DNA from: an uncultured Parvularculaceae bacterium
GTDB taxonomy: Bacteria > Pseudomonadota > Alphaproteobacteria > Caulobacterales > Parvularculaceae
Assembly: GCA_913055785.1 (NCBI GenBank)
Contig: CAJXLJ010000013.1
Location: 1-64,000 of the forward strand
DNA length: 64,000 nt
Direction of reading: 5' to 3'
Positions 19,549 to 64,000 of the stretch are shown one piece after another (position 1 is the stretch's first letter; each line of letters starts with the position of its first letter). The notes under the pieces are model-generated. The model was not told where the DNA came from. It saw only the letters and a list, made by a program, of their open reading frames with translations, and ran no database searches. Position numbers and translations under genes: made by a program.

Positions 19549-20343
19549 TCACCGCCCCTCAAACTCGGGTTTCCGCTTCTCATTGAACGCCAGTACGCCT
19601 TCTTGCCGGTCCCGCGTTTGTACAAGCGCGTGATAGAGATCGATTTCAAACTGCAACGCATCACGTTTGGGTATAGTGAGCCCTTCCCGCATCGCTTTTT
19701 TCGCCTGACGAACCGCAAGCGGCGCGTTTTCAGCGATACGGGCCGCCATGGTAACTGCGCTCTCCACCAGTTCTTCCTGTGAGAAGAGGCGATTTACGAC
19801 GCCCCATAACAGCGCCTCTTCGGCGGTAAATCGGTCCGCTGAAAAAATGATTTCGTTGGCGCGGCGCAAACCGACCGCACGGGGTAAATTCTGCGTCCCG
19901 CCTGCGCCCGGCATGATCCCGAGCGAAGTTTCCGAAAGCGCGAAACGCGCGTTATTCGAGGCATATGCAAAGTCAGCGGCGAGCGCGAGTTCGCACCCTC
20001 CTCCGATCGCCGCCCCGTTGACCGCCGCGATTATCGGAACGGCCGTATCGTGCATGCAAAAAAGCGCCTGCTCCATAATTCGATGCTGATGAACCCAGGC
20101 TTCGTCGCTCATTCCGTTGCGTTCTTTCAGGTCTCCGCCCGCGCAAAATATTTTTGAGCCGGCTCCTGTAAGCACGACAGCCCGCACCCCAATCTCATCC
20201 GAAGCGAGGCTGGTGAATAAGACAAGTAAGTCTTTCGCCATTTGGGTATTGATAGCATTGGCGGCGTCCGGACGGTTCAGCGTAATCAGCAACACGTCCG
20301 CATGCGGCCTCTCAATCGTCAGCGTCTCAAATGTCATCGTCAT
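19549..20343 (-). CDS. Enoyl-CoA hydratase (crotonase family)
   Basis: This is a 264-residue crotonase that keeps both catalytic glutamates: GGGCELALA for the first and SETSLGIMPGAGG for the second. It is therefore a credible true hydratase. Its start overlaps the CoA-transferase stop (ATGA) and it ends 3 bp before the HMG-CoA-lyase-type gene, so the three are translationally linked. It would add water to the enoyl-CoA to create the hydroxyacyl-CoA that the lyase cleaves. The tight order supports this more than the sequence alone does. Confidence 0.9.
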   Translation of the reverse strand: MTMTFETLTIERPHADVLLITLNRPDAANAINTQMAKDLLVLFTSLASDEIGVRAVVLTGAGSKIFCAGGDLKERNGMSDEAWVHQHRIMEQALFCMHDTAVPIIAAVNGAAIGGGCELALAADFAYASNNARFALSETSLGIMPGAGGTQNLPRAVGLRRANEIIFSADRFTAEEALLWGVVNRLFSQEELVESAVTMAARIAENAPLAVRQAKKAMREGLTIPKRDALQFEIDLYHALVQTRDRQEGVLAFNEKRKPEFEGR

Positions 20344-37856: not shown

Positions 37857-38639
37857 TTATTTGCCCTGCCAAACCGGCTGGCGCTTTTCCGCGAAAGCTC
37901 TCGGCCCTTCAATGGCGTCGCTGGATGCACGCGCAGTCCTTACAGCCGGACACCCCCATTGAAGCGACATGGCGCGATCAAGCGGCATGTCCGTCCCCTG
38001 TTGCATGACCTGCTTTGCCGCACGCACGGCCAAAGGGCTGAGCTTGCATATATCTTCAGCCCATTTTTTCGCCGCCTCCAACACTTGCCCTTCAGGAACG
38101 ACCTCGTTGACGAAGCCATACTCCAGCCCTTCTTTGGCGGAGACTTTACGCGCCGTCAGCGCAAGTCCCATCGCCCTTTTCATCCCGATGGCGCGCGGCA
38201 AGCGCAATAGCCCGCCCGCAAGGGCGATAAGACCGACACGAGGTTCTGGCAAAGCAAATCCGGCATTCTCGGATGCAATGATCAGATCGCAAGCCAGCGC
38301 TGTCTCAAATCCGCCGCCCATGGCGAGCCCGTTGACAGCCGCGATGACCGGTTTTGTCATGCCGAAACGACTCGAAAGCCCGGCAAAACCCGAAGGCGGA
38401 GGCTGATCCGGCTGACCTTTCGCCGCGTGATATTTTAAATCATTGCCAGCGCAAAACGCACGGTCTCCGGCGCCGGTAACTATAGCCACCCACTGCTGAT
38501 CGTCTTTCTCAAACTCATCAAAAACTTTGTGCAACTCCCAATGCGCCGGACCATGCAGGGCATTCAACACTTCCGGACGATTGAGCGTGACAATCGTCAG
38601 ATGGTCGTCTTTGGCGACGCGTATATATTCATATCCCAC
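37857..38639 (-). CDS. Enoyl-CoA hydratase (crotonase family)
   Basis: This is a 260-residue protein with both catalytic glutamates (GGGFETALACD and LPEPRVGLIALAGG), plus the CAGNDLKYHA loop. It is the best candidate for the true hydratase of region C. It lies 31 bp downstream of an SDR gene on the minus strand, so a hydratase/3-hydroxyacyl-CoA dehydrogenase pair is likely. Confidence 0.9.
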   Translation of the reverse strand: MGYEYIRVAKDDHLTIVTLNRPEVLNALHGPAHWELHKVFDEFEKDDQQWVAIVTGAGDRAFCAGNDLKYHAAKGQPDQPPPSGFAGLSSRFGMTKPVIAAVNGLAMGGGFETALACDLIIASENAGFALPEPRVGLIALAGGLLRLPRAIGMKRAMGLALTARKVSAKEGLEYGFVNEVVPEGQVLEAAKKWAEDICKLSPLAVRAAKQVMQQGTDMPLDRAMSLQWGCPAVRTARASSDAIEGPRAFAEKRQPVWQGK

Positions 38640-46707: not shown

Positions 46708-47883
46708 TCAAGATTTCGATACGTAGTCTTTCACGCGGCGATCGATCTCGTCCTGATACATCGTGATTTGAATTTCCATGCCCCCAAGGTGAATTTTATC
46801 CAGTGCGCCAGAGCGCAGCCCCGCATCACATTGCTCCGCCGCCCAATAATCTTCCTGACCGAAGGTCAGTTCCATAAGCTCAAACGACCTTCGGAGTTTA
46901 TCTTCCATTTTTTCAGTGGATGGCTCGCCTTTATTGGCCAGCATGTAATAGTCGACAAAGGTGTGATCGGACGCGACGGGGCGCACGACGCCGAAACTCA
47001 CGAAATCCGGGCTTACAACCAAAATCCCGTTAGGAAACGGCGTGTAGGAGAAAACCATAATCCGTCGAACTTCTTCAAAGTCATCTGTCACGCGACTTTT
47101 TTCAAAGTTGCCACGCGCTGAAGCGTTCCGGATGTGCGGCCCAATACGATCAATTACATTTTCATTATCGACAAAAAACTTGCCCACCGAATCTTTATGC
47201 AATCTCGTAACGTGGTAGCTGTCCAGCATGGAATCCATGAGCAGCTTCCAGTTCGCTTTCACATCAAAAGTAGCCTTCTTGTAAACAATCATGTCGCCGA
47301 GACCGAGCGCGGCTAGATCTTCGCTCAGCTCGCCTTTAACCGAGCCGAAATCGATGTCATTGTCGTATGAAAGGCCAACCCAGATTATGCCGCCGCCTTC
47401 AAAACACTGCAGCTCCTTGAGACCCAGCCGGTCTTTTTCAAGGCCTGGAAATATTTCCTGCCTCGGCACGCCGATCAGCCGCCCGTCCAAGGCAAATGTC
47501 CATGCGTGATAAGGGCAACTTATCCTGACACCATTGACCGCATCGTCTTTCGTACAAAGTTTTGTTCCTCTATGGGTGCAGGCGTTGACGAAAGCTCTGC
47601 ATTGCCCATCGGCGGTGCGCGTTAACAACACAGGCACGCCCGCAATATCCACCTTGGCGTAGCTTTTCGGCGTTTCAAGCAAGGCGGAAGGCGCGGCGAC
47701 GACCGGTTCGGAATGGAAAACAGCTTCCTTTTCGAGCCTGAACCGTTCGGGGTTGATATAATTATCCGCCGGAAGCGTGTCATAAACGTGTGGAAAAACG
47801 GAATCTTTTAGCTCCGGCATTCTATGAAGAAGACGCTTTTGGCCTTCCGTCAGCGGTCTTTTCATTGGTTGAGCTTCGTTCAT
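46708..47883 (-). CDS. Rieske non-heme iron oxygenase, alpha subunit
   Basis: This is a 391-residue oxygenase. The Rieske cluster ligands are Cys102, His104, Cys123 and His126 (ACTHRG and SCPYHAW). The catalytic mononuclear iron site has His224 and His229 in the DSYHVTRLH segment. It belongs to the alpha-only group that includes ketosteroid, carnitine and stachydrine oxygenases, and no beta subunit follows. It should add oxygen to a ring or C-H bond using electrons from a ferredoxin/reductase pair. The only reductase in the window is at 33753. It is fifth in its operon. Confidence 0.93.
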   Translation of the reverse strand: MNEAQPMKRPLTEGQKRLLHRMPELKDSVFPHVYDTLPADNYINPERFRLEKEAVFHSEPVVAAPSALLETPKSYAKVDIAGVPVLLTRTADGQCRAFVNACTHRGTKLCTKDDAVNGVRISCPYHAWTFALDGRLIGVPRQEIFPGLEKDRLGLKELQCFEGGGIIWVGLSYDNDIDFGSVKGELSEDLAALGLGDMIVYKKATFDVKANWKLLMDSMLDSYHVTRLHKDSVGKFFVDNENVIDRIGPHIRNASARGNFEKSRVTDDFEEVRRIMVFSYTPFPNGILVVSPDFVSFGVVRPVASDHTFVDYYMLANKGEPSTEKMEDKLRRSFELMELTFGQEDYWAAEQCDAGLRSGALDKIHLGGMEIQITMYQDEIDRRVKDYVSKS

Positions 47884-47929: not shown

Positions 47930-49021
47930 TCATTCACTCGCTCCAAACAGGAAGCCTGCCGCGCGATCCTGATGATATTTCGCACTTCCAAACAGAAACT
48001 GGTTGAGTTTTGCGCGCTTCAAAAAGCGATGGCATGAATGCTCCCAGGTAAAGCCCATACCGCCATGGAGTTGAACGGCGTCGCCGGCAATCTGTTCATA
48101 TGCATCGCAAGCATAAAACTTGCTGCCGGAAGCGCCGGCTGACCCTTCAGGCAAACCGCCAGCGACGTGACCGACCGCTTCCGAAACCAGCGCGCTTGCC
48201 GCTTCAAGCAACACTTTCCAGCTCGCAACGCGATGTTTGAGCGCCTGGAAGGAACCGATGGGCCGCCCGAACTGCTCGCGCACGCCCATGTAATCCACCG
48301 TTATCTCGAGTATATGCTCCGCCCCGCCAACAGAATCGCAGGCTGTTGCAATCAACGCATGATCGATCAGTCCGCGCCACTGCGCATCGCCCAAGTCGAG
48401 AATCTGGTCTTCGACTACCTCCGCTTTATCGACGATCACATCGAACAAATGTCTTGAGGGATCGGCGCTGGGCCGCTCCTTCAGCGTGACGCCTTCCGTC
48501 TCAACAGGAAGCATTGTCAAAGCCAGCGATTTGGAAGGCTTGCGCACGGGCAAAAATATATGCGTGCTGTCAGGGCTACCGAGGACATGGCTGGTAGTCC
48601 CGGTTAGCATGCGCCCGGCGCTTAAAGCAGCAACTGGAGCGCCTGACTCCGGCAACTTCATACTGGCGCGCACTTTTCCTTCCGCCAACCGGGGAAGCCA
48701 GCTATCCTTTTGCTCAGCAGTTCCAGCGTTCGCTATCGCTTGCGCGGCAAGCATATGCGGTAAAATTGGAGATGGCGCCAAATAGCGGCCGCATTCCCTA
48801 TAAAGGACCGCCAATTCATTCAATCCAAGTCCAAGCCCGCCAAAATCCTCGCCGACACTCAAGCCGAGCCAGCCAAGGCCGGCCATTTCCTTCCATAGGC
48901 GCAATATACGGGGCTGATTGACGGATTCATCTTCGCGCGCCGCAAGCAGCCACTCCTCGTCGGCGAGCAGTTGTCTAATGGAATCGCGTAGTTCTTCCTG
49001 TTCAATCATGGCGGCGGTCAT
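47930..49021 (-). CDS. Acyl-CoA dehydrogenase family protein (small chain type)
   Basis: This 363-residue protein starts at the ATG at 49021, preceded by GGGAG and lying directly after the upstream stop. A longer reading to 49198 would overlap that gene. The C-terminal GFTWEHSCHRFLKRAK segment is typical of the small partner in heteromeric steroid-type dehydrogenases. It keeps the helical core but parts of the flavin-binding loop are poor. It probably pairs with one of the neighbouring large chains to desaturate a CoA ester. Confidence 0.82.
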   Translation of the reverse strand: MTAAMIEQEELRDSIRQLLADEEWLLAAREDESVNQPRILRLWKEMAGLGWLGLSVGEDFGGLGLGLNELAVLYRECGRYLAPSPILPHMLAAQAIANAGTAEQKDSWLPRLAEGKVRASMKLPESGAPVAALSAGRMLTGTTSHVLGSPDSTHIFLPVRKPSKSLALTMLPVETEGVTLKERPSADPSRHLFDVIVDKAEVVEDQILDLGDAQWRGLIDHALIATACDSVGGAEHILEITVDYMGVREQFGRPIGSFQALKHRVASWKVLLEAASALVSEAVGHVAGGLPEGSAGASGSKFYACDAYEQIAGDAVQLHGGMGFTWEHSCHRFLKRAKLNQFLFGSAKYHQDRAAGFLFGASE

Positions 49022-49022
49022 A

Positions 49023-49970
49023 TCAACACTCCCGCCGTCCATTGTCGCCAGCCGCGCCCCATCTGCTGTCCGCGATATCGAGCGCGGCGCCATGGGCGCC
49101 GCCAGTTTCGGATTGAAGCGCCCGCAAGCGATATGTCCAAAAGTGGAGCAAGTGCTCTGTTGTAACACCCATAGCGCCGTTAAACTGGTGCAAGTCATAC
49201 ATCAGTTTCTGCACTTCAGATTGCACATAACATGCGGCGACCATGGCGTCCTCGGGCGCTTTGCTCCAGGCCGCCTTCATCGCCAGATAATAGGCGCCCT
49301 TAGCAAGGCGGGAACATTGAACGAGTCGATGCTGCACAGCCTGAAAGGAGCCCACCGGGCGCCCAAACACCGTACGTTGCTTTACATAATCGACTGTAAA
49401 GTCGATCGCTGCTTGCGCCGCGCCGGCGAACTCTGCCGCAAGCGCCACGCGCGCCCACTGGGTCGCCGTGGCGCCAGCGGATGCAATAACCGACCGCGTA
49501 AGATCAGGTTTGCGAACGAACTTGCCGAACGGGTAGGCGTATATGGTTTCAACGCGCTCAACGTCCCCCTCGTCAATCGAGACTACCGCCACGTCTTCTC
49601 CGAGATTGACAAACGCCGTTTTAGCTACCGCCAGATTGCGGTGCGGCTTATCAAGCCGTGCGCCGTCCACATAGGCGATAGGTCCTTCAGGGACCTCATC
49701 CGGCATTAACGCCGGCGCAATCAGCGCCGACGCGCCCACTTCCACAACAGGGGGGATCTTCGCGGCCTCAGCGACAAGTAAAGCCGCCGCCAGCGGATCA
49801 ACTTCTCGCGCCGCATTAAGAAATCCGCTTTCTTGGAGCACGTCCTGCAGCGCGCTGTGGAAATAACAATAATCGAGTTTCTGCGATTGCGGGATATCCT
49901 GATGATCCAGCAAGATCGCTCGCATGGCCGAGACAAGAGCGGACTGATCGTCGTTTAGTTGAAAGTCCAC
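49023..49970 (-). CDS. Acyl-CoA dehydrogenase family protein (small chain type)
   Basis: This is a short (315-residue) family member with a GTG start that directly abuts the previous stop (TAAGTG). The C-terminal GVTTEHLLHFWTYR segment parallels the other small chain (47930-49021), but the flavin-binding middle domain is reduced. It is unlikely to bind FAD alone. The position between two larger chains suggests an alpha2beta2 complex, as known for steroid side-chain dehydrogenases such as ChsE1-ChsE2. Confidence 0.82.
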   Translation of the reverse strand: MDFQLNDDQSALVSAMRAILLDHQDIPQSQKLDYCYFHSALQDVLQESGFLNAAREVDPLAAALLVAEAAKIPPVVEVGASALIAPALMPDEVPEGPIAYVDGARLDKPHRNLAVAKTAFVNLGEDVAVVSIDEGDVERVETIYAYPFGKFVRKPDLTRSVIASAGATATQWARVALAAEFAGAAQAAIDFTVDYVKQRTVFGRPVGSFQAVQHRLVQCSRLAKGAYYLAMKAAWSKAPEDAMVAACYVQSEVQKLMYDLHQFNGAMGVTTEHLLHFWTYRLRALQSETGGAHGAALDIADSRWGAAGDNGRREC

Positions 49971-53405: not shown

Positions 53406-54629
53406 TCAACTGCGGGCGGGCCATTCGATGTGAACATCGGAAAGCGCCATCACCCCGCCGGTTCTCCATTTCGGCGGCTTACTCTGAACGCGCTGGAAGC
53501 TCGGAATGCGTTTAATCCATTCCTCAGTAAATATCCGCATTTCCATGCGGGCGAGATAATTGCCTACGCATGTATGCGCGCCGACTGAAAACGCCAGATG
53601 TGAGCGATTTTCACGGTCAATATCAAACTTCTCCGGATTTTCATTCTTCCGCTCATCCATACCGGCGAGGGCGAGCGGACAAGCGACCATATCGCCGGCC
53701 CGAAACTGCACGCCTTCAAATTCATAATCTTTGATGCAAATGCGCGGCTGTTGCACAATAGAAAAACGACGAAGCGCTTCCTCGACAAAATCCGCAATGG
53801 AAGCCGGATCTTCCGCCAGGCGCTTTTGAATCTGCGGATGTTGCGCAAGATGGTTGTATGTAAATGTAAGGGTATTAGCGACCGTATCGAGACCGGCGAG
53901 AAACAACAAAAATCCGATCGAATTCAATTCATCATCGGTAAGCTTTCTACCGTGAACTTCTTCTTGAACCAACTTTGACATTAGATCGTCGCGTGGTTCT
54001 CTTCTGCGCATATCGAAATATTCGGAAACGATTCCGATGATCGTATTCTGAATTTCAATTCGTCGCGGAATATCAACGCCACTGAAAAACTCATGCACAA
54101 TGCTACGGAACTCTTCAAAACGCTCAAGCGGAAAACCCATCAGTTCCATAAAGATAGACACCGGATAAGCAGCGCCGACCTGTTCAGCAAACTCGCAAGA
54201 ACCTTCGTCGATAACTTTATCAATCAGTTTGTTCGCCCATTTCCGCAGCTGCGGTTCCATCGCGCGGATGGTTTTCTGGTCGAAATTCCTCATGAGCACC
54301 ATACGGAATGGCAAATGCTCCGGCGGATCGAGATTTAGCGGTATCATGACATTGCCGCTATTGGATGGCGGAATATCCAGTTCCTTGTTCGAAAAGTGCT
54401 CTGTGTCGGGAAGTATCTTCGATTGATGGTCGAGCCGCGTCACAACCCAATAACCGCCGTTTAGCGGTGAATAAAAAATATCAGGAGCATCTTCATGCAG
54501 GCTGTGAATGCCTCGCTGCACATCCTCTCCATGCGCGCCGCATCGGGGGTCTTCGAAATAATCATATTCAAAAACCTGATCTGCCCGAACATGATCAGGC
54601 ACTTCGGCCCGCTGCGATGCATTGCTCAT
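53406..54629 (-). CDS. Cytochrome P450
   Basis: This is a 407-residue bacterial P450. The oxygen-activation motif AGLDT is at 245-249, ExxR is Glu284 to Arg287, and the heme-thiolate Cys354 is in FSVGAHTCVGN. I start it at the ATG at 54629, which GGAGG precedes by 5 bases; the open frame continues to a GTG at 54644 that overlaps the SDR stop. Likely roles are terminal or ring hydroxylation of a hydrophobic substrate, as for CYP125/142-type and terpene P450s. It needs a ferredoxin, which the window lacks. Confidence 0.94.
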   Translation of the reverse strand: MSNASQRAEVPDHVRADQVFEYDYFEDPRCGAHGEDVQRGIHSLHEDAPDIFYSPLNGGYWVVTRLDHQSKILPDTEHFSNKELDIPPSNSGNVMIPLNLDPPEHLPFRMVLMRNFDQKTIRAMEPQLRKWANKLIDKVIDEGSCEFAEQVGAAYPVSIFMELMGFPLERFEEFRSIVHEFFSGVDIPRRIEIQNTIIGIVSEYFDMRRREPRDDLMSKLVQEEVHGRKLTDDELNSIGFLLFLAGLDTVANTLTFTYNHLAQHPQIQKRLAEDPASIADFVEEALRRFSIVQQPRICIKDYEFEGVQFRAGDMVACPLALAGMDERKNENPEKFDIDRENRSHLAFSVGAHTCVGNYLARMEMRIFTEEWIKRIPSFQRVQSKPPKWRTGGVMALSDVHIEWPARS

Positions 54630-54640
54630 CTTTTCCTCCG

Positions 54641-55435
54641 TCACAATGTGGCGACGCGCCCGCCGTCCACATAAATTATTTGGCCTGTTATGTAACTTGA
54701 CGCTGGCGAAGCGAGAAACACGGCCGCGCCGGCGACTTCCTCTACCGCTCCCATTCTTCTCATAGGAAAGGCTGTTACAGCGTCTTCAAGCATTTTCGGT
54801 CTGTCCGGCGCCTCGATATTCGACGGCGAAATGGCGTTAAAGCGAACGGTAGGCGCGCATTCTTTCGCCAGATATTTTGTCATTGTCGCCAGAGCGGATT
54901 TCGTGCAGCCATAAGCCAGCGCTGGCAGAATAGGCGTGAAAGCCGCAGCGGCGAGGTTATTAATAATCACGCCACCGCGTTTTTGCATCTTCGGCGCAAG
55001 CGATTTTGCTATTCTGAAAGGCGCAAGCACATTGACGTTAAAACACGCCTGCCAATCTTCTTCAGTCGTATCCAGGCAGGACGAATGGGTGAATGTTTGT
55101 TTATGACCCGCATCAAGGGCATAGGCGTTGAAGAACCCAATATCGATGTCGCCAAAAGTATCTTCTGCAAAAGCTAAAACTTTCTCCAGCCCTTGCTGCG
55201 TAGCGATATCCTCGGCGATACCCGCGGCGCGATCGCGATGCACCGCATTTATGTCATGCACGAGCGTTTCTACGCCTTGCGACGTTCTGGCGTTTGCAAT
55301 GACATTGGCGCCGGCTGAAGCGAAGGCTTTGGCGATTTGATTGCCAATCGCCGGCCCGACGCCAAAGACAATTGCGGTCTTGCCTTCCAGGCTGAAGGCG
55401 CCGCCCATCATCGCCTGCTTCGTTCGGCCGGTCAT
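54641..55435 (-). CDS. Short-chain dehydrogenase/reductase
   Basis: This is a 264-residue SDR from the ATG at 55435. Another ATG at 55411 (MMGGAF) is also possible. A longer GTG-started reading to 55492 would cover the operator site. The cofactor motif is FGVGPAIG and YGCTK is intact. It is directly upstream of the P450 gene with a 4-bp overlap between open frames, so the two are probably co-translated. It may oxidise the hydroxyl placed by the P450. Confidence 0.85.
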   Translation of the reverse strand: MTGRTKQAMMGGAFSLEGKTAIVFGVGPAIGNQIAKAFASAGANVIANARTSQGVETLVHDINAVHRDRAAGIAEDIATQQGLEKVLAFAEDTFGDIDIGFFNAYALDAGHKQTFTHSSCLDTTEEDWQACFNVNVLAPFRIAKSLAPKMQKRGGVIINNLAAAAFTPILPALAYGCTKSALATMTKYLAKECAPTVRFNAISPSNIEAPDRPKMLEDAVTAFPMRRMGAVEEVAGAAVFLASPASSYITGQIIYVDGGRVATL

Positions 55436-57588: not shown

Positions 57589-58059
57589 ATGGAGCCCCTG
57601 TCCAGACTCGAAGCTGTTGAAGCCATCAGACGTCTTAAAGCCCGCTATTTTCGTTTCGTGGATTTGAAAGACTGGAGCTCGCTCGAGCGGGTTTTTACAG
57701 CGGATATCGAGTTCGACAGAACCGAATCAGCCAGCGTCAAAAACCTGGTCACCGGCGAATGGGAGCCGCCTCTCCCGCCGCACCCCCTCATCGTCAAGGG
57801 GCGCGGCGCGATCATGCAGATGATAAAAAAGGCTGTCGACGGACTCATGACGGTCCATCATGGGCATATGGCGGAAATCGAGGTTATTAGCGACACATCA
57901 GCGAAAGCCATTTGGCCCATGAATGACTCTCTAAGAGACGTGAACGGAAAATTTGTGCTGCGCGGCGCAGGGCATTACCACGAAGAATACGAAAAGCATT
58001 CAGGCATATGGGCGATCAGAAAAATTAAATTGACGAGAATTTATCTCGAAAAGCTCTAG
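57589..58059 (+). CDS. SnoaL-like / NTF2-fold protein
   Basis: This is a 156-residue protein with the usual opening helices (LEAVEAIRRLKARYFRFVDLKDW) broken here by the family's RY-F-D pattern, then the VFTADIEFD strand and a C-terminal beta sheet. The fold includes ketosteroid isomerases, dehydratases and ring-dioxygenase small subunits, and the catalytic residues cannot be assigned. It lies 45 bp upstream of an SDR on the same strand. A small isomerase or dehydratase step on a cyclic intermediate is a reasonable guess. Confidence 0.8.
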   Translation: MEPLSRLEAVEAIRRLKARYFRFVDLKDWSSLERVFTADIEFDRTESASVKNLVTGEWEPPLPPHPLIVKGRGAIMQMIKKAVDGLMTVHHGHMAEIEVISDTSAKAIWPMNDSLRDVNGKFVLRGAGHYHEEYEKHSGIWAIRKIKLTRIYLEKL

Positions 58060-58104: not shown

Positions 58105-58887
58105 ATGGACCTTGGGATACGCAATCGCACAGCGCTTGTTTGCGCCGCGAGCAAGGGAATTGGATACGCCGCCGCTGAGAGTTTGGCTAAAGAAGGCGCC
58201 AATCTGGTTCTCGCCGCAAGAAGTCCGAAAAATCTGGAGGCGGCGGCTCAAACAATCGCTGATAAACATAGCGTTTCCGTTGAGTATTTTGCGGCAGATC
58301 TGGTTTCTCGAAACGACCGGGAAAAGCTGCTTGAAAAATACCCTAATGCGGACATCCTTGTCGCCAACCCTGGCGCGCCTCAGCGATTCGCAGACGCTCT
58401 CACGCTTTCTCGGAAAGATCGCGAATGGTGGATGGAAGCTCACTTTTATTCCATGATCGAACTCATCCAGGCGTATTTACCCGGTATGATTTCGCATAAA
58501 TTCGGACGCGTCATCAATATCTCGGTGAGCTTCATTAAATTTCCGCAAGTCAGCGCCGGTCATTCTCACGCTGCGCGGCTTGCTCTCGCCGGATCGATCG
58601 CCGCGCTAGTCAGAGAAGCCGCACCATATAATGTAACGATCAACAGTGTTCTCCCAGGTCTCATCAACACCGAAGCGCTTAAGGCGTCGCTAAGCGGCCG
58701 CGCCAAGGAACAGGGCGTTGCGTACGAACAAGTAGCTGCGGGCATACTGAAAACATGCCCCGCGGGAAGATTGGCTGAGCCATTTGAAATCGGCGATCTC
58801 GTCGCCATGCTCGCCTCGGCGCAGATGGGATTTCTTACAGGACAGAATATTGTCAGTGATGGCGGCGCCTATCAGGGTTTGTTTTGA
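58105..58887 (+). CDS. SDR-fold protein with substituted active site
   Basis: This is a 260-residue Rossmann protein of the SDR family. The cofactor loop reads CAASKGIG and NPG replaces NNAG. At the catalytic site, the YxxxK positions read Ser154 and Arg158 (SHAARLAL), so neither the Tyr nor the Lys of classical SDRs is present. It may use other residues or be a non-catalytic partner. It follows the SnoaL-like gene, probably in one transcript from operator S6. Confidence 0.83.
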   Translation: MDLGIRNRTALVCAASKGIGYAAAESLAKEGANLVLAARSPKNLEAAAQTIADKHSVSVEYFAADLVSRNDREKLLEKYPNADILVANPGAPQRFADALTLSRKDREWWMEAHFYSMIELIQAYLPGMISHKFGRVINISVSFIKFPQVSAGHSHAARLALAGSIAALVREAAPYNVTINSVLPGLINTEALKASLSGRAKEQGVAYEQVAAGILKTCPAGRLAEPFEIGDLVAMLASAQMGFLTGQNIVSDGGAYQGLF

Positions 58888-59159: not shown

Positions 59160-59594
59160 ATGGAATACAGCTTCGAGGCCCATAAGATTATCGGCGGCAT
59201 CGGCGCCGATGACGAATATTGGCGCTCCCTTGAAAACAATGAATTCCGACTGCCCCAATGCGCAAAGTGCGGAAAATGGACATGGCCCGCACATTTTCGT
59301 TGCGGCGACTGCGGCTCTTGGGACTTCAATTGGGTGAAGCTGGAACCTGAAGGAAATATTTTTTCCTGGACGCGCAGCTGGTACGCTTTCGATCGCGTAC
59401 GCGAACGCACCGAAGACATTCCATACATCACCGTCCTCACCGAGATCCCCGAAGCAGATAATGCTCGTATTCTCGGCGTATTAAAGGGCGACGACACAGG
59501 CATTCAAATTGGACTTCCTGTTCGCGGTTCGATCGAACCGCCAAGCGAAAAAACCAAGTTTTATCCCTCCATTACGTGGGAAATTATTCGGTGA
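59160..59594 (+). CDS. DUF35 / OB-fold zinc-ribbon protein (aldolase partner, ChsH2 C-terminal-like)
   Basis: This 144-residue protein has a rubredoxin-like zinc ribbon (Cys34, Cys37, Cys48, Cys51) followed by an OB-fold (GNIFSWTRSWYAF, VLTEIPEAD, GLPVRGSIE). AGGAGAGG precedes the ATG. DUF35 proteins partner SCP2-type thiolases. In ChsH2, this domain is fused to a MaoC hydratase that is absent here. It should form a complex with the product of the next gene (59656) and act on a hydroxyacyl-CoA. Confidence 0.88.
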   Translation: MEYSFEAHKIIGGIGADDEYWRSLENNEFRLPQCAKCGKWTWPAHFRCGDCGSWDFNWVKLEPEGNIFSWTRSWYAFDRVRERTEDIPYITVLTEIPEADNARILGVLKGDDTGIQIGLPVRGSIEPPSEKTKFYPSITWEIIR

Positions 59595-59655
59595 CACGAA
59601 TTCGACGCCGACGAGAAACAAGACGTTCGAGAACGAAAACAATTGAGGGAACAAG

Positions 59656-60822
59656 ATGACTGATATACGCGGCAAAACGGCGATTGTTGGCGTCGGCCAA
59701 ACGCCATATTTCAAACGCGGTACGTCAGAGCATCCTGCACTCAAGCTATGTCTCGAAGCAATTGTTGAAGCCAGCGAAGATGCTGGGCTTGATCCTAAGG
59801 ATATTGACGGCTTCGTTTCTTACGCGTCGGAGAACAGCGACGCCCAAAAACTGATGGCTGGCCTTGGCACTCGCGAAGTTCGTTTCGCTTCGCTCACATG
59901 GATTCACGGCGGAGGCATACCGGGGGCGTTGAGCATCGCCGCCGCGGCGATTATGACCGGTCAGGCGGAAGTCGTCGCGGTCTACAGATCGATGGCCGAA
60001 AGTTTTGGGCAGCGTTTGCGGGTTGATGTCGCGCAAAACGATACGGCGGCGCAATATCTAGTAAACGGTATTGAATCCCCGACACAGATTCTCGCCTTAC
60101 GCGCGCAACGGCTGATGCAACATCATGGCGTTCCCCGTTCTGCGCTAAGAGCCGTATCGCAAGCGTCATACTATCACGCCCGTAACAACGCACGCGCTGT
60201 GGGGCGCCAGATTGAGCTAGACGACGAGACTTACGATAATTCGCGGATGATCGCGGATCCTTATCGCCTTTTCGATTGCTCGAGAGAAAATGACGGTGCT
60301 TGCGCCGTGCTCGTCGTGTCGGCGGAACGCGCAAAGCATTTAAGACAAAAGCCGGCTTATATTCTCGCCGCTCCAATGGGCACACCGGGCGGCGGCGGCG
60401 CGCTTGAGGAGAACTGGCGACCTTATTATGCGACGGCGGGCCAGGTAGAATTGGCGAACCGCATGTGGGCGTCATCAGGCTACGGCCCTAAGGATGTGGA
60501 CGTCGCGCAAATCTACATGAACAACAACTCCATGGGCATCGGCGCCATGATCGATCATGGCTTTTGTACGTTTGAAAACGCCGGTGAATTCTTGACGCTT
60601 GAAAACCTCACCGCACCCTCCGGCAAATTGCCGATCAACACATCCGGCGGCGATCTCGCCGAAGGTTTCATCCACGGCATGGGGCTGTTGGCGGAGGCCA
60701 CACGGCAGATCCGCGGCGATTCTACGAATCAGGTTCCAGGCGCCAAACTCTCACTTATGACAGGCGGCCCCGGAGATACGATGAGCAGCACTGGACTGTT
60801 AGGCGCAGAAGAGACCTTGTAA
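59656..60822 (+). CDS. SCP2-type thiolase-like protein (Ltp2-type aldolase candidate)
   Basis: This is a 388-residue thiolase-fold protein of the lipid-transfer-protein branch. The loop that holds the nucleophilic Cys in thiolases reads HGGGIPGALSI without a Cys. Typical C-terminal segments (PINTSGGDLAEGFIHGMG, TGGPGDT) are present. Loss of the Cys is characteristic of Ltp2-like enzymes, which catalyse retro-aldol cleavage of tertiary hydroxyacyl-CoA with a DUF35 partner, as in steroid side-chain loss. It directly follows the DUF35 gene and precedes a CoA ligase. The exact substrate is unknown. Confidence 0.87.
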   Translation: MTDIRGKTAIVGVGQTPYFKRGTSEHPALKLCLEAIVEASEDAGLDPKDIDGFVSYASENSDAQKLMAGLGTREVRFASLTWIHGGGIPGALSIAAAAIMTGQAEVVAVYRSMAESFGQRLRVDVAQNDTAAQYLVNGIESPTQILALRAQRLMQHHGVPRSALRAVSQASYYHARNNARAVGRQIELDDETYDNSRMIADPYRLFDCSRENDGACAVLVVSAERAKHLRQKPAYILAAPMGTPGGGGALEENWRPYYATAGQVELANRMWASSGYGPKDVDVAQIYMNNNSMGIGAMIDHGFCTFENAGEFLTLENLTAPSGKLPINTSGGDLAEGFIHGMGLLAEATRQIRGDSTNQVPGAKLSLMTGGPGDTMSSTGLLGAEETL

Positions 60823-60891
60823 TATCTAAAACCGTAGCGAAAGATTGTTTAAGCGGCCACGCAATAACGGCCGTTAGTGAGGAAATGGGCT

Positions 60892-62412
60892 GTGAGCTTT
60901 ACCGTTGCGAGCGCGCTGCGCTGGTGGGCGCAGGAATGTCCTGACAGGATCGCCATCAGCGTTGAAGACAAGCCGCTTACCTATAGCGAATTGTGGTCAT
61001 GGTCCGCCCGGCTCGGTCAATTCTTGATCGATAACAATGTTCAGCATGGCGAACGAGTCATAATCCTTGGCGCGAACTCAATGGAGTACGCCGTTCTCCA
61101 GGTCGCCCTCATGCGCATCGGCGCCGTCAATTGCCCCGTCAATTTCCGTTCTTCTGCTCAGGAACTGAGCAAATCCATCTCGACCCTTACGCCGACGCAT
61201 ATTTTCGCTGACGCAGAACGTTTGGCCGTCGCCCAAAGCGCCGCCAGCGAAGGCTCAGCCATCAAGGTTTTTCCGCTAGCGGAAATAGCGAAATTGGAAC
61301 CAGGCAACGAAGATACGCCGCATATCGCTCACGAGCCTGACCCTGAAGATCCCTTGTTCATCATTGGCACCAGCGGCTCTACCGGCGCACCCAAAGGCGT
61401 CGTTGAAAACCATCGCACAGTTGTCGCTTATTCAGCCGAGTTCGTATTAATGGAGCCGCAGTGCGGCAGCGGCGCAAGCATTCTTGTCGTAGGGCCTTTC
61501 AGCTCATCCTCCGGAACGCTGGTCATGTTCCAGTTTTTAACCTCAGGAGCGACAGTCTATCTTGAGAGTCAATTCAGACCAGCCCGCGCGCTCGAATTGC
61601 TCACAAAACACAAGATCACCATCTTCCTGGCAGCCACAATCTTCTTCGAACGCATTGCGGCGCTGGAAGAATTTCAAACAGCAGACCTTTCAAGTCTCTA
61701 TTTCAGCCAGGCTGGCGGCGCGCGCGTTTCCACTTCCCTTCTCGCGGCATGGCGCGCAAAAGGCGCCATTCTCCGCCAGGCCTATGGATGTACTGAGGCG
61801 GGGGGCGCCTGGGCGGCGCGCAACGATGTTGCATTGTCATCGCCAGAAAAAGCGGGGCGTGGCGGCATTTTCTCACGTTACGCCATTCTGGGCGATGATG
61901 GAAAGTTCGCACCGCCGGGCGTCACCGGCGAAATTCTTGTTCAAAGCGCCAGCGTTACGCCGGGATACTGGAATAACCCGGAGGCGACCGCCGAAGCCAT
62001 TATGGATGGATGGCTGCGCACCGGCGATCTTGGCTTCATTGACGAGACCGGCAACATCACATTCGTCGACAGGTTGAAAGACATCATCATTTCCGGCGGA
62101 CTAAATATTTCCGCGAAGGAGATTGAGGATGTCATCGCTGAATTGGACGGAGTTGAAGAAGTCGCTGTGATTGCTGCAAAGCATGACAATTTTGGCGAAA
62201 CGCCGCTCGCAATCATTTATGGCGACACTCAAAAAGTGACTGCAGAGATCGTCACCAATGCATGTCTGGAGCATCTGGCCCGTTTCAAGGCGCCCCGATA
62301 TGTCGTTTTCGAGGACGAACATTTACCGCGCGTGCTTTCCGGGAAAATATCAAAGCCGCAATTGCGGGAAAAATATAAGGATGCGCACTTGAAATTGACG
62401 GAAACGCGCTGA
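60892..62412 (+). CDS. Acyl-CoA synthetase (AMP-forming CoA ligase)
   Basis: This 506-residue adenylating enzyme has the P-loop-like IGTSGSTGAPKG, the AYGCTEAG substrate-site motif, GWLRTGDLGFID, the hinge DRLKDIIISGG, and the catalytic Lys in GKISKPQLREKY. The GTG at 60892 is preceded by GAGGAA; an upstream GTG (60877) is possible. It should form the CoA ester of an acid of region C, the entry step for beta-oxidation. It lies in the operon started by the DUF35 gene and precedes two crotonases. Confidence 0.92.
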   Translation: MSFTVASALRWWAQECPDRIAISVEDKPLTYSELWSWSARLGQFLIDNNVQHGERVIILGANSMEYAVLQVALMRIGAVNCPVNFRSSAQELSKSISTLTPTHIFADAERLAVAQSAASEGSAIKVFPLAEIAKLEPGNEDTPHIAHEPDPEDPLFIIGTSGSTGAPKGVVENHRTVVAYSAEFVLMEPQCGSGASILVVGPFSSSSGTLVMFQFLTSGATVYLESQFRPARALELLTKHKITIFLAATIFFERIAALEEFQTADLSSLYFSQAGGARVSTSLLAAWRAKGAILRQAYGCTEAGGAWAARNDVALSSPEKAGRGGIFSRYAILGDDGKFAPPGVTGEILVQSASVTPGYWNNPEATAEAIMDGWLRTGDLGFIDETGNITFVDRLKDIIISGGLNISAKEIEDVIAELDGVEEVAVIAAKHDNFGETPLAIIYGDTQKVTAEIVTNACLEHLARFKAPRYVVFEDEHLPRVLSGKISKPQLREKYKDAHLKLTETR

Positions 62413-62451: not shown

Positions 62452-63261
62452 ATGAACGATCACATCAATTATCACGTAAAGGCCGGGCTCGCCGTCATCA
62501 CCCTGAACCGGCCTGACGTTTTGAATGCGTTAAGCCGGGAGATGGTGCAAGACATCCGCCGCTTTGCATATGAATGTGAAAAAGATCCTGATGTCTTCGC
62601 GATCGCCATCACCGGCGCAGGACGCGCCTTTTGTTCCGGCCATGATATCAAAGCGCTGATCGCAGCCGCATCAGGCGTGAAAGACAATGCCGAGACGCCC
62701 GATCTGGGGACCAAGAGCTCGCCCGCGCTTTTCAGTTTCCTGCTCGACATATCGAAGCCTGTCTTCGCCGCCATAAACGGCGTCGCCGCTGCAGGCGGTT
62801 TCGTTCTCGCCATGATGTGCGACATGAGGTTCGTATCCGATAATGCAAGTTTTACTGTCGGCTTTTCCAATCGCGGGCTTGTCGCCGAACATGGACTGAG
62901 CTGGCTGCTACCGCGTCAACTCGGGATCAGCCGCGCGCTCGATATTCTGTGGAGTTCCAGGCGCATCTACGCCGAAGAAGCATTACAGCTCGGATTGGCG
63001 GATCGCGTCGTACCCGCGGGAAGCGAACTTTCCGCCGTTGCAGAATATGTGCAGGCCATGCGCGAGAGTGTTTCCCCGCGTGCGCTGGCGGAAATGAAAG
63101 CGCAAGTTTACCAGCACCTTTCAGCGGATTTCATGACAGCCGTCATCGACTCAGAACGCCGCACCAAAACATCTTTAACCTATGGCGACGTCGCGGAAGG
63201 GGCCAACGCTTTCAGGGAAAAGCGCCCTCCCCGCTTTGCGCCCTGGAGCGGCCGTAAATGA
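62452..63261 (+). CDS. Crotonase-family protein lacking both catalytic glutamates
   Basis: This is a 269-residue crotonase with the CSGHDIKALI loop. The first catalytic Glu position reads GGFVLAMMCD (Val) and the second reads GFSNRGLVAEHGLSW. The latter form occurs in a distinct crotonase subgroup whose chemistry is not simple hydration. It follows the CoA ligase by 39 bp, and its stop overlaps the next start (ATGA). Confidence 0.85.
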   Translation: MNDHINYHVKAGLAVITLNRPDVLNALSREMVQDIRRFAYECEKDPDVFAIAITGAGRAFCSGHDIKALIAAASGVKDNAETPDLGTKSSPALFSFLLDISKPVFAAINGVAAAGGFVLAMMCDMRFVSDNASFTVGFSNRGLVAEHGLSWLLPRQLGISRALDILWSSRRIYAEEALQLGLADRVVPAGSELSAVAEYVQAMRESVSPRALAEMKAQVYQHLSADFMTAVIDSERRTKTSLTYGDVAEGANAFREKRPPRFAPWSGRK

Positions 63262-64000
63262 GCGATAACGGGCGACATCCGGAAGTGCTCTATCAGGCAG
63301 GCGGCGCCGTTGCGACGATAACAATCAACCGGCCATACGCACGCAACAGCGTAAACAAGAAAACCTGCCTGGCGCTTTATCAGGCAGTGCGCCAGGCCGA
63401 TGAGAACCCTAAACTCAGCGTGGTTGTCTTGCGCGGCGAAGGAAAGGATTTTTGCTGCGGCGCCGATCTCAAAGCCGAATCACAACGGCCCGACGAGAGC
63501 GATGCGCCCAGGCCAGAAACAGATATCCACCGCATATCTGTCCTGCTCCACGAAATGCGCGCGGTCACTGTCGCCGCTATCCGGGGCGGCTGCGCAGGCG
63601 CCGGGTTTGGCTGGGCATGCGCCTGCGACTTTCGCGTTGCGGCGGATAGCAGCGTATTCAACACAGCGTTTTTAAATGTCGGCGTCGCCGGCGACATGGC
63701 TGTTCCCTGGACCCTGCCCAGGATTATTGGCGCGAGCCGTGCGCGCGAGCTTTCATTCTTCCCGGGTAAATTTGATGCTCAGCTTGCATACGATATCGGT
63801 CTCATCAACAGGCTTTGGCCCGAAGCTGAATTCGAGAACAGCCTTGAAGGCTTTACCCAACAGCTTTCCAGCCATTCGCCGGAAGCGCTTGCCGCGCTTA
63901 AAGCCAATTATATAGCGGCTGAACGCCAAAGCCTTGAAGAGTATGTCATGCTCGAGGCAGACGCCCATATTCGATTACTCGGAACACAAGCATCAAAGGA
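63258..64000 (+). CDS. Crotonase-family protein, C-terminally cut by the window
   Basis: ATG at 63258 overlaps the previous stop, and the frame stays open to the window end (247 codons). The CoA loop is CCGADLKAES. The first catalytic Glu position reads GAGFGWACACD (Gly) and the second reads TAFLNVGVAGDMAVPW, so neither Glu is present. It is probably part of the ligase operon and another non-hydratase crotonase. The missing end should be short, since family members have about 260 residues. Confidence 0.85.
   Translation, partial: MSDNGRHPEVLYQAGGAVATITINRPYARNSVNKKTCLALYQAVRQADENPKLSVVVLRGEGKDFCCGADLKAESQRPDESDAPRPETDIHRISVLLHEMRAVTVAAIRGGCAGAGFGWACACDFRVAADSSVFNTAFLNVGVAGDMAVPWTLPRIIGASRARELSFFPGKFDAQLAYDIGLINRLWPEAEFENSLEGFTQQLSSHSPEALAALKANYIAAERQSLEEYVMLEADAHIRLLGTQASK

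Follow-up and report, generated by a model that had tools for sequence, protein, structure and literature searches.

A Stand-Alone DUF35 Protein and a Thiolase-Like Partner with a Tyr-Asn-Phe Active Site: A Putative Retro-Aldolase Pair from an Uncultured Parvularculaceae Bacterium

A DUF35 Gene Directly before a Thiolase-Like Gene

The stretch of DNA analyzed here, called the window below, comprises positions 1 to 64,000 of contig CAJXLJ010000013.1 (assembly GCA_913055785.1) from an uncultured Parvularculaceae bacterium. Near its 3′ end, a DUF35 gene (59160-59594) and a thiolase-like gene (59656-60822) lie on the same + strand with a spacing of 61 bp, and both open reading frames (ORFs) were located at the coordinates given by an earlier, sequence-only reading of this DNA. 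That reading had described a stand-alone DUF35 zinc-ribbon protein directly before a Cys-less SCP2 thiolase homologue and had likened the two to the steroid aldolase Ltp2/ChsH2. The gene arrangement is as it described, and sequence and fold do point to the solved aldolase complexes 6OK1 and 9MYR. The predicted active site, Tyr-Asn-Phe, is nevertheless of neither the Ltp2 nor the Sal kind. The features of the pair are as follows.

59160-59594, + strand: stand-alone DUF35 protein (zinc ribbon plus OB fold), 144 amino acids, predicted aldolase scaffold partner (Pfam, alignment, AlphaFold2 (AF2) model, fold matches)
59259-59312, + strand: zinc-ribbon codons Cys34-Cys51, C-x2-C-x10-C-x2-C, a canonical C4 pattern (alignment)
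59656-60822, + strand: SCP2-thiolase-like protein, 388 amino acids, proposed retro-aldolase subunit (PDB sequence match, AF2 model, fold match)
60514-60522, + strand: Tyr287-Met288-Asn289, aligned to Y294-D-H296 of Thermomonospora curvata Ltp2 (TcLtp2) (alignments)
60667-60675, + strand: Phe338-Ile339-His340, with the Phe aligned to the acid Tyr344 of TcLtp2 and the His adjacent (alignments)

Predicted Folds of the Two Proteins

The DUF35 protein matches the Pfam family zf-ChsH2 (PF12172) with 25.9 bits, above the cut-off of 23.2, while its score against OB_ChsH2_C (PF01796), 23.0 bits, stays under the cut-off of 27.1; the match to the OB fold itself is clear. Across 27 aligned sequences, among them that of the window, Cys34, Cys37, Cys48, Cys51, and Trp21 do not vary. 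The AF2 model (predicted local distance difference test score, pLDDT, 90.8; predicted template modeling score, pTM, 0.82) was compared with known structures by VIA-align, which placed the DUF35 part of ChsH2 first (6ok1_D, Z 16.1, root-mean-square deviation (rmsd) 2.0, 126 aligned residues) ahead of 9myr_B (Z 15.0). By sequence and by Foldseek, the DUF35 part of Shy came first and ChsH2 second. The zinc site described for Shy in PMC12329534 is of the Cys3His1 type, which the canonical C4 pattern of Cys34/37/48/51 does not match. This protein is the single PF12172 match in the genome, which is no proof of a single DUF35 gene because PF12172 overlooks some of them (none was listed at the pairs of related loci L018 or L028).

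The thiolase-like protein scores 75.7 bits against Thiolase_C_1, and its best PDB sequence match is TcLtp2 (6ok1_A, E = 3.5e-56; 33.8% identity in the alignment). Its AF2 model (pLDDT 90.8, pTM 0.92) superposes on 6ok1_C with Z 54.8 and rmsd 1.9 over 375 aligned residues, and on Sal (9myr_A) with Z 47.8. The top matches of both window proteins are thus chains of the same solved complexes, which favors the assignment of the two as partners in a retro-aldolase.

A Tyr-Asn-Phe Active Site

At the position of the thiolase nucleophile, the alignments place a Gly-rich loop and no Cys, and the motif of the YDHF type likewise lacks a Cys, so both hallmarks of SCP2 thiolases, the nucleophilic Cys and the Cys of the HDCF-type motif, are absent. 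The description "Cys-less" holds for the catalytic positions only, since four Cys (residues 32, 208, 216, and 304) occur elsewhere in the protein. According to PMC12329534, the base, the oxyanion residue, and the acid of Ltp2 are Tyr294, His296, and Tyr344, respectively; Sal uses Tyr302 and Cys304. The base is conserved as Tyr287, but the position of Ltp2 His296 is taken by Asn289, where Cys304 of the Sal YDC motif is also missing, and that of the acid Tyr344 by Phe338. Mapping of the active-site tyrosines, which the sequence-only reading had put forward as a check, therefore leaves one of the two catalytic tyrosines of Ltp2 in place, and because of the changes at 338 and 289 the pair is not of the Ltp2 type. 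In the literature searched, at the level of titles and the beginnings of abstracts, a description of the Tyr-Asn-Phe type was not found.

Such a replacement might mean that the protein is no aldolase at all. The loss of the acid Tyr would then mark other chemistry on the thiolase fold (Cys-free acyl transfer or retro-Claisen hydrolysis) or a non-catalytic acyl-CoA binder, and we consider this unlikely. The acids of Ltp2 and Sal are both missing, and acyltransferases and thiolases partnered by DUF35 (PhlABC, benzoylsuccinyl-CoA thiolase) do appear in the fold lists; on the other hand, the protein has no Cys available for acyl-enzyme chemistry, and the invariance of Tyr287 and Asn289 in 40 aligned sequences, for Asn partly a result of selection, counts against a dead enzyme.

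Relatives and Phylogeny

The related loci used here are the best 80 of at least 533 relatives, of which 35 entered the tree. One of the two peptide patterns behind this set included Y[EMD]N, so the constancy of Asn289 within it is partly selected; Phe338 was in neither pattern. Sixty-three of the 80 carry Tyr-Asn-Phe and 17 Tyr-Asn-Tyr. A pattern-free search (E ≤ 1e-60) of 299 genomes of the order found matches in 10 genomes, and all 13 matches, the window's own included, have Tyr-x-Asn. Among four relatives on plasmids, position 289 is Asn in three and Ser in one.

In a tree of 67 rows, the Tyr-Asn-Phe proteins form one clade of 31 rows with support of 100/99, and the state requires a single change in 100% of 200 bootstrap trees. 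The clade spans Sphingomonadales, other Pseudomonadota, and Actinomycetota (Mycolicibacterium, Pseudonocardia, Streptomyces, Gordonia), and its sister rows carry Tyr-Asn-Tyr. TcLtp2 and its orthologues make up a separate clade that does not include the window protein. The Cys-motif proteins and IpfD, the latter on a long branch with unsure exact placement, fall outside both clades. Across the tree the motif position is His, Cys, Asn, Ala, or Ser, whereas the base Tyr is present in 67 of 67 rows. Asn alone arose more than once, because it occurs once on the Ltp2 side as well (L124). Since Tyr287 and Asn289 are kept and the acid is lost clade-wide in two phyla, a working but altered enzyme would explain the pattern better than decay.

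In 79 of the 80 related loci, a DUF35 gene is found no more than 2.5 kb from the homologue. We note that one contig of a metagenome-assembled genome (L028:9531-16131, also L021) holds three family members with 74, 63, and 51% identity to the protein of the window, and that the 63% and 51% members each have their own DUF35.

Of the 20 same-genus genomes listed, none matched the thiolase-like gene at E ≤ 1e-60, yet copies 73-75% identical occur in other genera and families, a pattern that fits an accessory catabolic island. Sphingopyxis yananensis and Sphingobium jiangsuense are among the carriers of close homologues. The G+C content of the window falls from 0.59 over its first 12 kb to 0.52-0.56 thereafter. 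The region was possibly acquired.

The Missing MaoC Half

The sequence-only reading had contrasted the lone DUF35 with known steroid aldolases, in which it took DUF35 to be fused to a MaoC hydratase. That premise is true of ChsH2 and Shy but does not extend to Atf1-ChsH4 of Mycolicibacterium neoaurum, whose aldolase partner ChsH4 is described as a DUF35-only protein of 138 amino acids (PMC10398937); ipfD and ipfE are separate genes too. Its statement that no MaoC gene exists in the window was borne out, as none of the window ORFs matched either of two home-made MaoC hidden Markov models. A whole-genome search gave two PF01575 matches over the cut-off and one below it, all on other contigs. The contig itself ends at 64113, 113 bases past the window.

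The two profiles differ in reach. The first derives from the N-terminal regions of ChsH2 in nine Ltp2-orthologue loci out of ten; those nine match it by construction, and L106 is left as the independent case. The second was built from other MaoC proteins and detects the ChsH2 part in 5 of the 10. With these profiles, DUF35 and a ChsH2-type MaoC part were found in one ORF in 10 of 10 Ltp2-orthologue loci (L099-L108, 70-73% identical to TcLtp2; profile from nine of them). No MaoC part was found on the DUF35 ORF in the 80 related loci (0/80), an absence that rests on profiles of limited sensitivity, given that the second finds only half of the ChsH2 parts. A MaoC-like ORF occurs anywhere in stretches of up to 10 kb a side in 7 of the 80. 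Independent of the home-made profiles, 13 genomes that carry the closest relatives were searched with Pfam. The nearest PF01575 match lay about 9.7 kb from the pair in one genome; in the other 12 it was more than 90 kb off or on a different contig. Beside Ltp2 orthologues, this search gave a weak PF01575 signal in G310 and G305. Absence of the MaoC half thus appears to be usual in this branch.

These data bear on the idea that the pair is a genuine steroid aldolase of the Ltp2/ChsH2 type whose hydratase lies elsewhere or past the contig end. For both proteins, Ltp2-ChsH2 ranks among the closest structures, the contig stops just past the window, and a gene resembling that of the bile acid 7α-dehydratase BaiE lies upstream on the same strand. 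We nonetheless regard this as very improbable: the window protein belongs to a separate clade, in which Phe occupies the position of the acid Tyr and Asn that of the His, the PF01575 matches in the 13 genomes are distant from the pair, and the genome has no match to KshA_C (PF19298), a weak control in that 14 control genomes gave one signal and none over the cut-off. A steroid substrate accordingly looks unlikely.

Neighboring Genes in the Window

The further genes on which the interpretation draws are listed below.

60877-62412, + strand: AMP-binding acyl-CoA ligase, 54 bp downstream of the thiolase-like gene (PF00501, 226 bits)
62452-63261, + strand: crotonase-fold protein without either catalytic Glu (Val/Phe)
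63258-64000, + strand: second crotonase-fold protein without either catalytic Glu (Gly/Phe)
58105-58887, + strand: short-chain dehydrogenase/reductase (SDR), upstream of the pair
57589-58059, + strand: SnoaL_4 protein resembling bile acid 7α-dehydratase BaiE, alternative (de)hydratase candidate (PF13577, 89.7 bits; PDB 4l8p, BaiE, E = 6.4e-14)
53406-54644, − strand: CYP101-like cytochrome P450, a candidate hydroxylase for the cluster (top PDB hit CYP101J2, E = 2.7e-81, then CYP101D and P450cam chains)
46708-47880, − strand: Rieske oxygenase alpha subunit, candidate hydroxylase of the cluster (PF00355/PF00848; partial PDB matches, best E = 8.9e-27)
37857-38639, − strand: crotonase with both catalytic Glu, candidate enoyl-CoA hydratase (best NCBIfam matches include DpgD and EchA19, below cut-offs)
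19549-20343, − strand: second crotonase with both catalytic Glu

The second Glu-less crotonase runs past the window to a translated stop at about contig position 64040, after which an ATG-led frame of 11 codons reaches the contig end. Because the contig stops at 64113, genes past the operon cannot be claimed as absent. The two candidate hydroxylases, the P450 and the Rieske oxygenase, lie on the strand opposite to the pair at distances of 4.5 and 11 kb, and the window also encodes several acyl-CoA dehydrogenases (ACADs) and one canonical thiolase. Two ACAD ORFs of the minus strand overlap at 47930-49970. The first bears a remote likeness to IpdE2 (153.8 bits, cut-off 450), and the start of one of the two was probably called too early. 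Homologues of the window P450, 47-63% identical, are present in four related loci (L018, L024, L025, L026).

The earlier description of the operon's crotonases as lacking their Glu residues applies to the two downstream genes, whereas those at 37857-38639 and 19549-20343 keep both. It is conceivable that the BaiE-like SnoaL protein or the Glu-less crotonases provide the hydroxylated substrate by an unusual hydration. The SnoaL_4 gene, with its BaiE match, is upstream on the same strand, homologues of it and of the SDR adjoin each other also in L016 and L029, and homologues of the Glu-less crotonases lie 3′ of the CoA ligase in L019 (both) and L016 (one). None of the 80 loci, however, has a SnoaL homologue on the same strand up to 3.5 kb from the pair, and BaiE is known as a dehydratase; we rate this route as quite improbable.

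Neighboring Genes across Related Loci

Neighbors were counted as kinds of genes within 2 kb on the same strand, called by similarity to reference proteins, with CoA activation meaning a ligase or a CaiB-type transferase and hydratase meaning a crotonase or MaoC. Among the ten Ltp2-orthologue loci, where MaoC was called partly with the profile from nine of them, ACAD and hydratase each neighbor the pair in 10, CoA activation in 2, and an oxygenase in 0. The 80 related loci present a different picture, with CoA activation in 49, an oxygenase in 24, both in 22, an aldehyde dehydrogenase (ALDH) in 19, a hydratase in 6, an ACAD in 4, and none of these in 25; an AMP-binding ligase in particular occurs in 32 of the 80. 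In far strips (6-8.5 kb) of the same loci the counts are activation 8, oxygenase 8, both 0, ALDH 6, hydratase 8, and ACAD 7, where near and far strips are unequal (2.0 vs 2.5 kb a side) and some loci are clipped by contig ends. In the 63 Phe338 loci the near counts are activation 48, oxygenase 24, both 22, ALDH 19, hydratase 5, and ACAD 4.

Thinning at 75% identity leaves 32 of the 80 loci, with near counts of activation 15, oxygenase 7, both 6, hydratase 4, ACAD 2, and ALDH 7 against far counts of activation 2, oxygenase 3, both 0, hydratase 4, ACAD 2, and ALDH 1. Taken together, CoA activation beside the pair is robust, the pair clearly lacks ACAD and hydratase partners nearby, and the link to an oxygenase is suggestive. 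The genes around the relatives thereby support, as a possibility, the proposal of the sequence-only reading that the substrate arrives already hydroxylated.

More distant relatives occur in annotated plasmid records of Delftia lacustris, Burkholderia plantarii, and Variovorax paradoxus, where one strand carries, in this order, the genes for a Rieske oxygenase, a CoA transferase, the thiolase-like protein, and the OB-fold (DUF35) protein. A PDR/VanB reductase adjoins the Rieske gene in the Burkholderia plasmid and an "oxidoreductase" in that of Variovorax, where a regulator and a transport protein sit before the CoA transferase. These plasmid relatives are 43-46% identical to the window protein, with Tyr at 338 in all and Ser at 289 in one.

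A conventional route has also to be weighed, in which ACAD and a free-standing, Glu-bearing crotonase (37857-38639 or 19549-20343) make the β-hydroxyacyl-CoA that the pair cleaves, so that hydration would be ordinary and just unfused. Two such crotonases and several ACADs are encoded in the window, and within 9 kb on either strand of the 80 loci an ACAD occurs in 33 and a hydratase-type gene in 42. In Sphingopyxis yananensis (L018), moreover, a homologue of the 37857-38639 crotonase with both Glu lies 3′ of the pair on the same strand, after a ligase and an SDR. Set against this are the 4 of 80 loci with an ACAD and 6 of 80 with a hydratase close by on the same strand, compared with 10 of 10 each for the Ltp2 orthologues, and the position of the window crotonase, about 20 kb off on the other strand. 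We consider this route a credible alternative, though one with less than even chances.

Proposed Function and Mechanism

On balance we favor, with moderate confidence, the reading that the pair is a DUF35-scaffolded retro-aldolase for a non-steroid β-hydroxyacyl-CoA, comparable to IpfD/IpfE of ibuprofen degradation, whose hydroxyl group would come from a separate oxygenase or a free-standing crotonase. The data themselves show the gene pair, the predicted folds, the residue changes, the single clade, and the neighbors; complex formation, catalysis, the roles of the residues, and the substrate, as read from homology, would be as follows. The acid would be activated by the adjacent CoA ligase and hydroxylated by a separate enzyme, a cluster oxygenase or a free-standing crotonase, so that no fused hydratase would be needed. 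DUF35 would serve as the structural partner of the thiolase-fold subunit, as in 6OK1. The substrate would be a β-hydroxyacyl-CoA, probably with a tertiary or hindered β-hydroxyl that is not open to oxidation. Tyr287 would remove the proton of this hydroxyl, whereupon the C-C bond would break to give a carbonyl compound and a shorter acyl-CoA. The enolate oxygen might be held by Asn289, in place of Ltp2 His296 or Sal Cys304, together with main-chain amides in the Gly-rich loop. Since Phe338 is unable to act as a proton donor, another group would be needed as acid; water would be the simplest donor, with His340 as an alternative here. His340 would not be a universal donor, because residue 340 is His in 50 and Asn in 13 of the 63 Phe338 relatives.

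Several observations weigh against this assignment. Without the acid Tyr, the protein could have lost its aldolase activity, and the Glu-bearing crotonases, ACADs, and canonical thiolase of the window allow an ordinary dehydrogenation-hydration route. Because the window oxygenases are on the other strand and at least 4.5 kb from the pair, the oxygenase route is drawn from relatives; in the 14 closest loci an oxygenase lies within 2 kb on the same strand in 3, and within 9 kb on either strand in 12. The 17 Tyr338 loci, counted with the same references, have near counts of activation 1, oxygenase 0, hydratase 1, ACAD 0, and ALDH 0, and after thinning activation is still enriched but oxygenase only weakly so. 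IpfD, finally, is 28% identical to the window protein, belongs to another clade, and carries Ala at 289, that is, Tyr-Ala-Tyr as against Tyr-Asn-Phe.

The NCBIfam and PDB matches of the window proteins, a CYP101-like P450 and otherwise general families, do not name a substrate; from the P450, a terpenoid would be our guess. Going further, and only tentatively since the chances are against it, the Tyr-Asn-Phe clade might represent a third catalytic type of DUF35-dependent retro-aldolase within a hydroxylate-activate-cleave module (oxygenase, CoA ligase or CoA transferase, aldolase plus DUF35). Such a module would strip acyl-CoA units off branched or cyclic non-steroid substrates without a dehydrogenase or hydratase step, and IpfDE would be a distant or convergent case of the wider strategy.

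If the retro-aldolase pair is active, it would work without either of the known acid/oxyanion side chains, and the thiolase fold would thus support retro-aldol cleavage in a third way. The contrast in neighborhoods would then suggest how degraders cut chains at hindered, non-oxidizable β positions without the usual β-oxidation partners, which is relevant to how branched and cyclic compounds, terpenoids and drugs like ibuprofen among them, are degraded. Proteins of the family that are labeled "acetyl-CoA acetyltransferase" or "lipid-transfer protein" in records would in that case need new names.

Comparison with Known Systems

The closest known system is the steroid side-chain aldolase Ltp2-ChsH2(DUF35) of Thermomonospora curvata (PDB 6OK1). 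It ranks first for the thiolase-like protein in both sequence and fold comparisons and first for the DUF35 protein in VIA-align. Both systems lack the thiolase Cys, have a DUF35 partner gene, carry the base Tyr in the same motif, and show a C4 zinc ribbon. The window pair differs in Phe338 for Tyr344, Asn289 for His296, a DUF35 that is not fused to MaoC, and its place in a separate clade.

More distant are benzoylsuccinyl-CoA thiolase BbsAB and PhlBC of the Friedel-Crafts acylase, which appear in the fold lists and likewise combine a thiolase-fold subunit with a separate DUF35 subunit. Both systems carry out Cys-dependent acyl chemistry.

The bile acid aldolase Sal-Shy(DUF35) of Comamonas testosteroni (PDB 9MYR) is the top match of the DUF35 protein by sequence and Foldseek and comes second by VIA-align for both proteins. 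It shares with the window pair the base Tyr, and it is what the window pair is predicted to be, a DUF35-scaffolded retro-aldolase. Unlike the window pair, it has Cys304 in Sal, and the DUF35 of Shy is described with a Cys3His1 site and a MaoC fusion (PMC12329534; PMC11321319). In Atf1-ChsH4, as in the window, the thiolase-like gene adjoins that of a DUF35-only protein without MaoC, the difference being the sterol substrate of Atf1-ChsH4; Atf1, set beside the window protein here by its published description, is given as 56% identical to Sal1 (PMC10398937).

For ibuprofen degradation, the pathway proposed in PMC6063337 and PMC9195938 has IpfF form the CoA ester, IpfABHI dihydroxylate the ring, and the SCPx-thiolase-like IpfD with IpfE remove the acyl-CoA; an ipfD insertion mutant is reported not to grow on ibuprofen, with polar effects seen for an upstream insertion (PMC9195938). 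The accessions of IpfD and IpfE are given in PMC11347016. On plasmid pIBU218, ipfD and ipfE are separate neighboring genes, so that an SCPx-thiolase-like protein, a separate DUF35-type gene, and a CoA ligase beside the pair are common to both systems. The ipf cluster also has a Rieske dioxygenase; in the window a P450 and a Rieske oxygenase lie 4.5 and 11 kb off on the other strand, and 24 of the 80 relatives have an oxygenase within 2 kb. IpfE (L150:13228-13626) has lost most of its zinc-binding Cys, unlike the DUF35 protein of the window. The same plasmid holds a second separate pair (L150:938-2502), a lipid-transfer protein with Tyr-His-Tyr and a DUF35 of 127 amino acids, beside a crotonase and a CoA transferase.

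The IpfDE precedent does not make the window pair an IpfDE, but does suggest that a pair of this kind may do its work with no hydratase. A DUF35-only partner has already been published in ChsH4; what is probably new here is the predicted Tyr-Asn-Phe active site in a DUF35-scaffolded, probable retro-aldolase of the thiolase fold.

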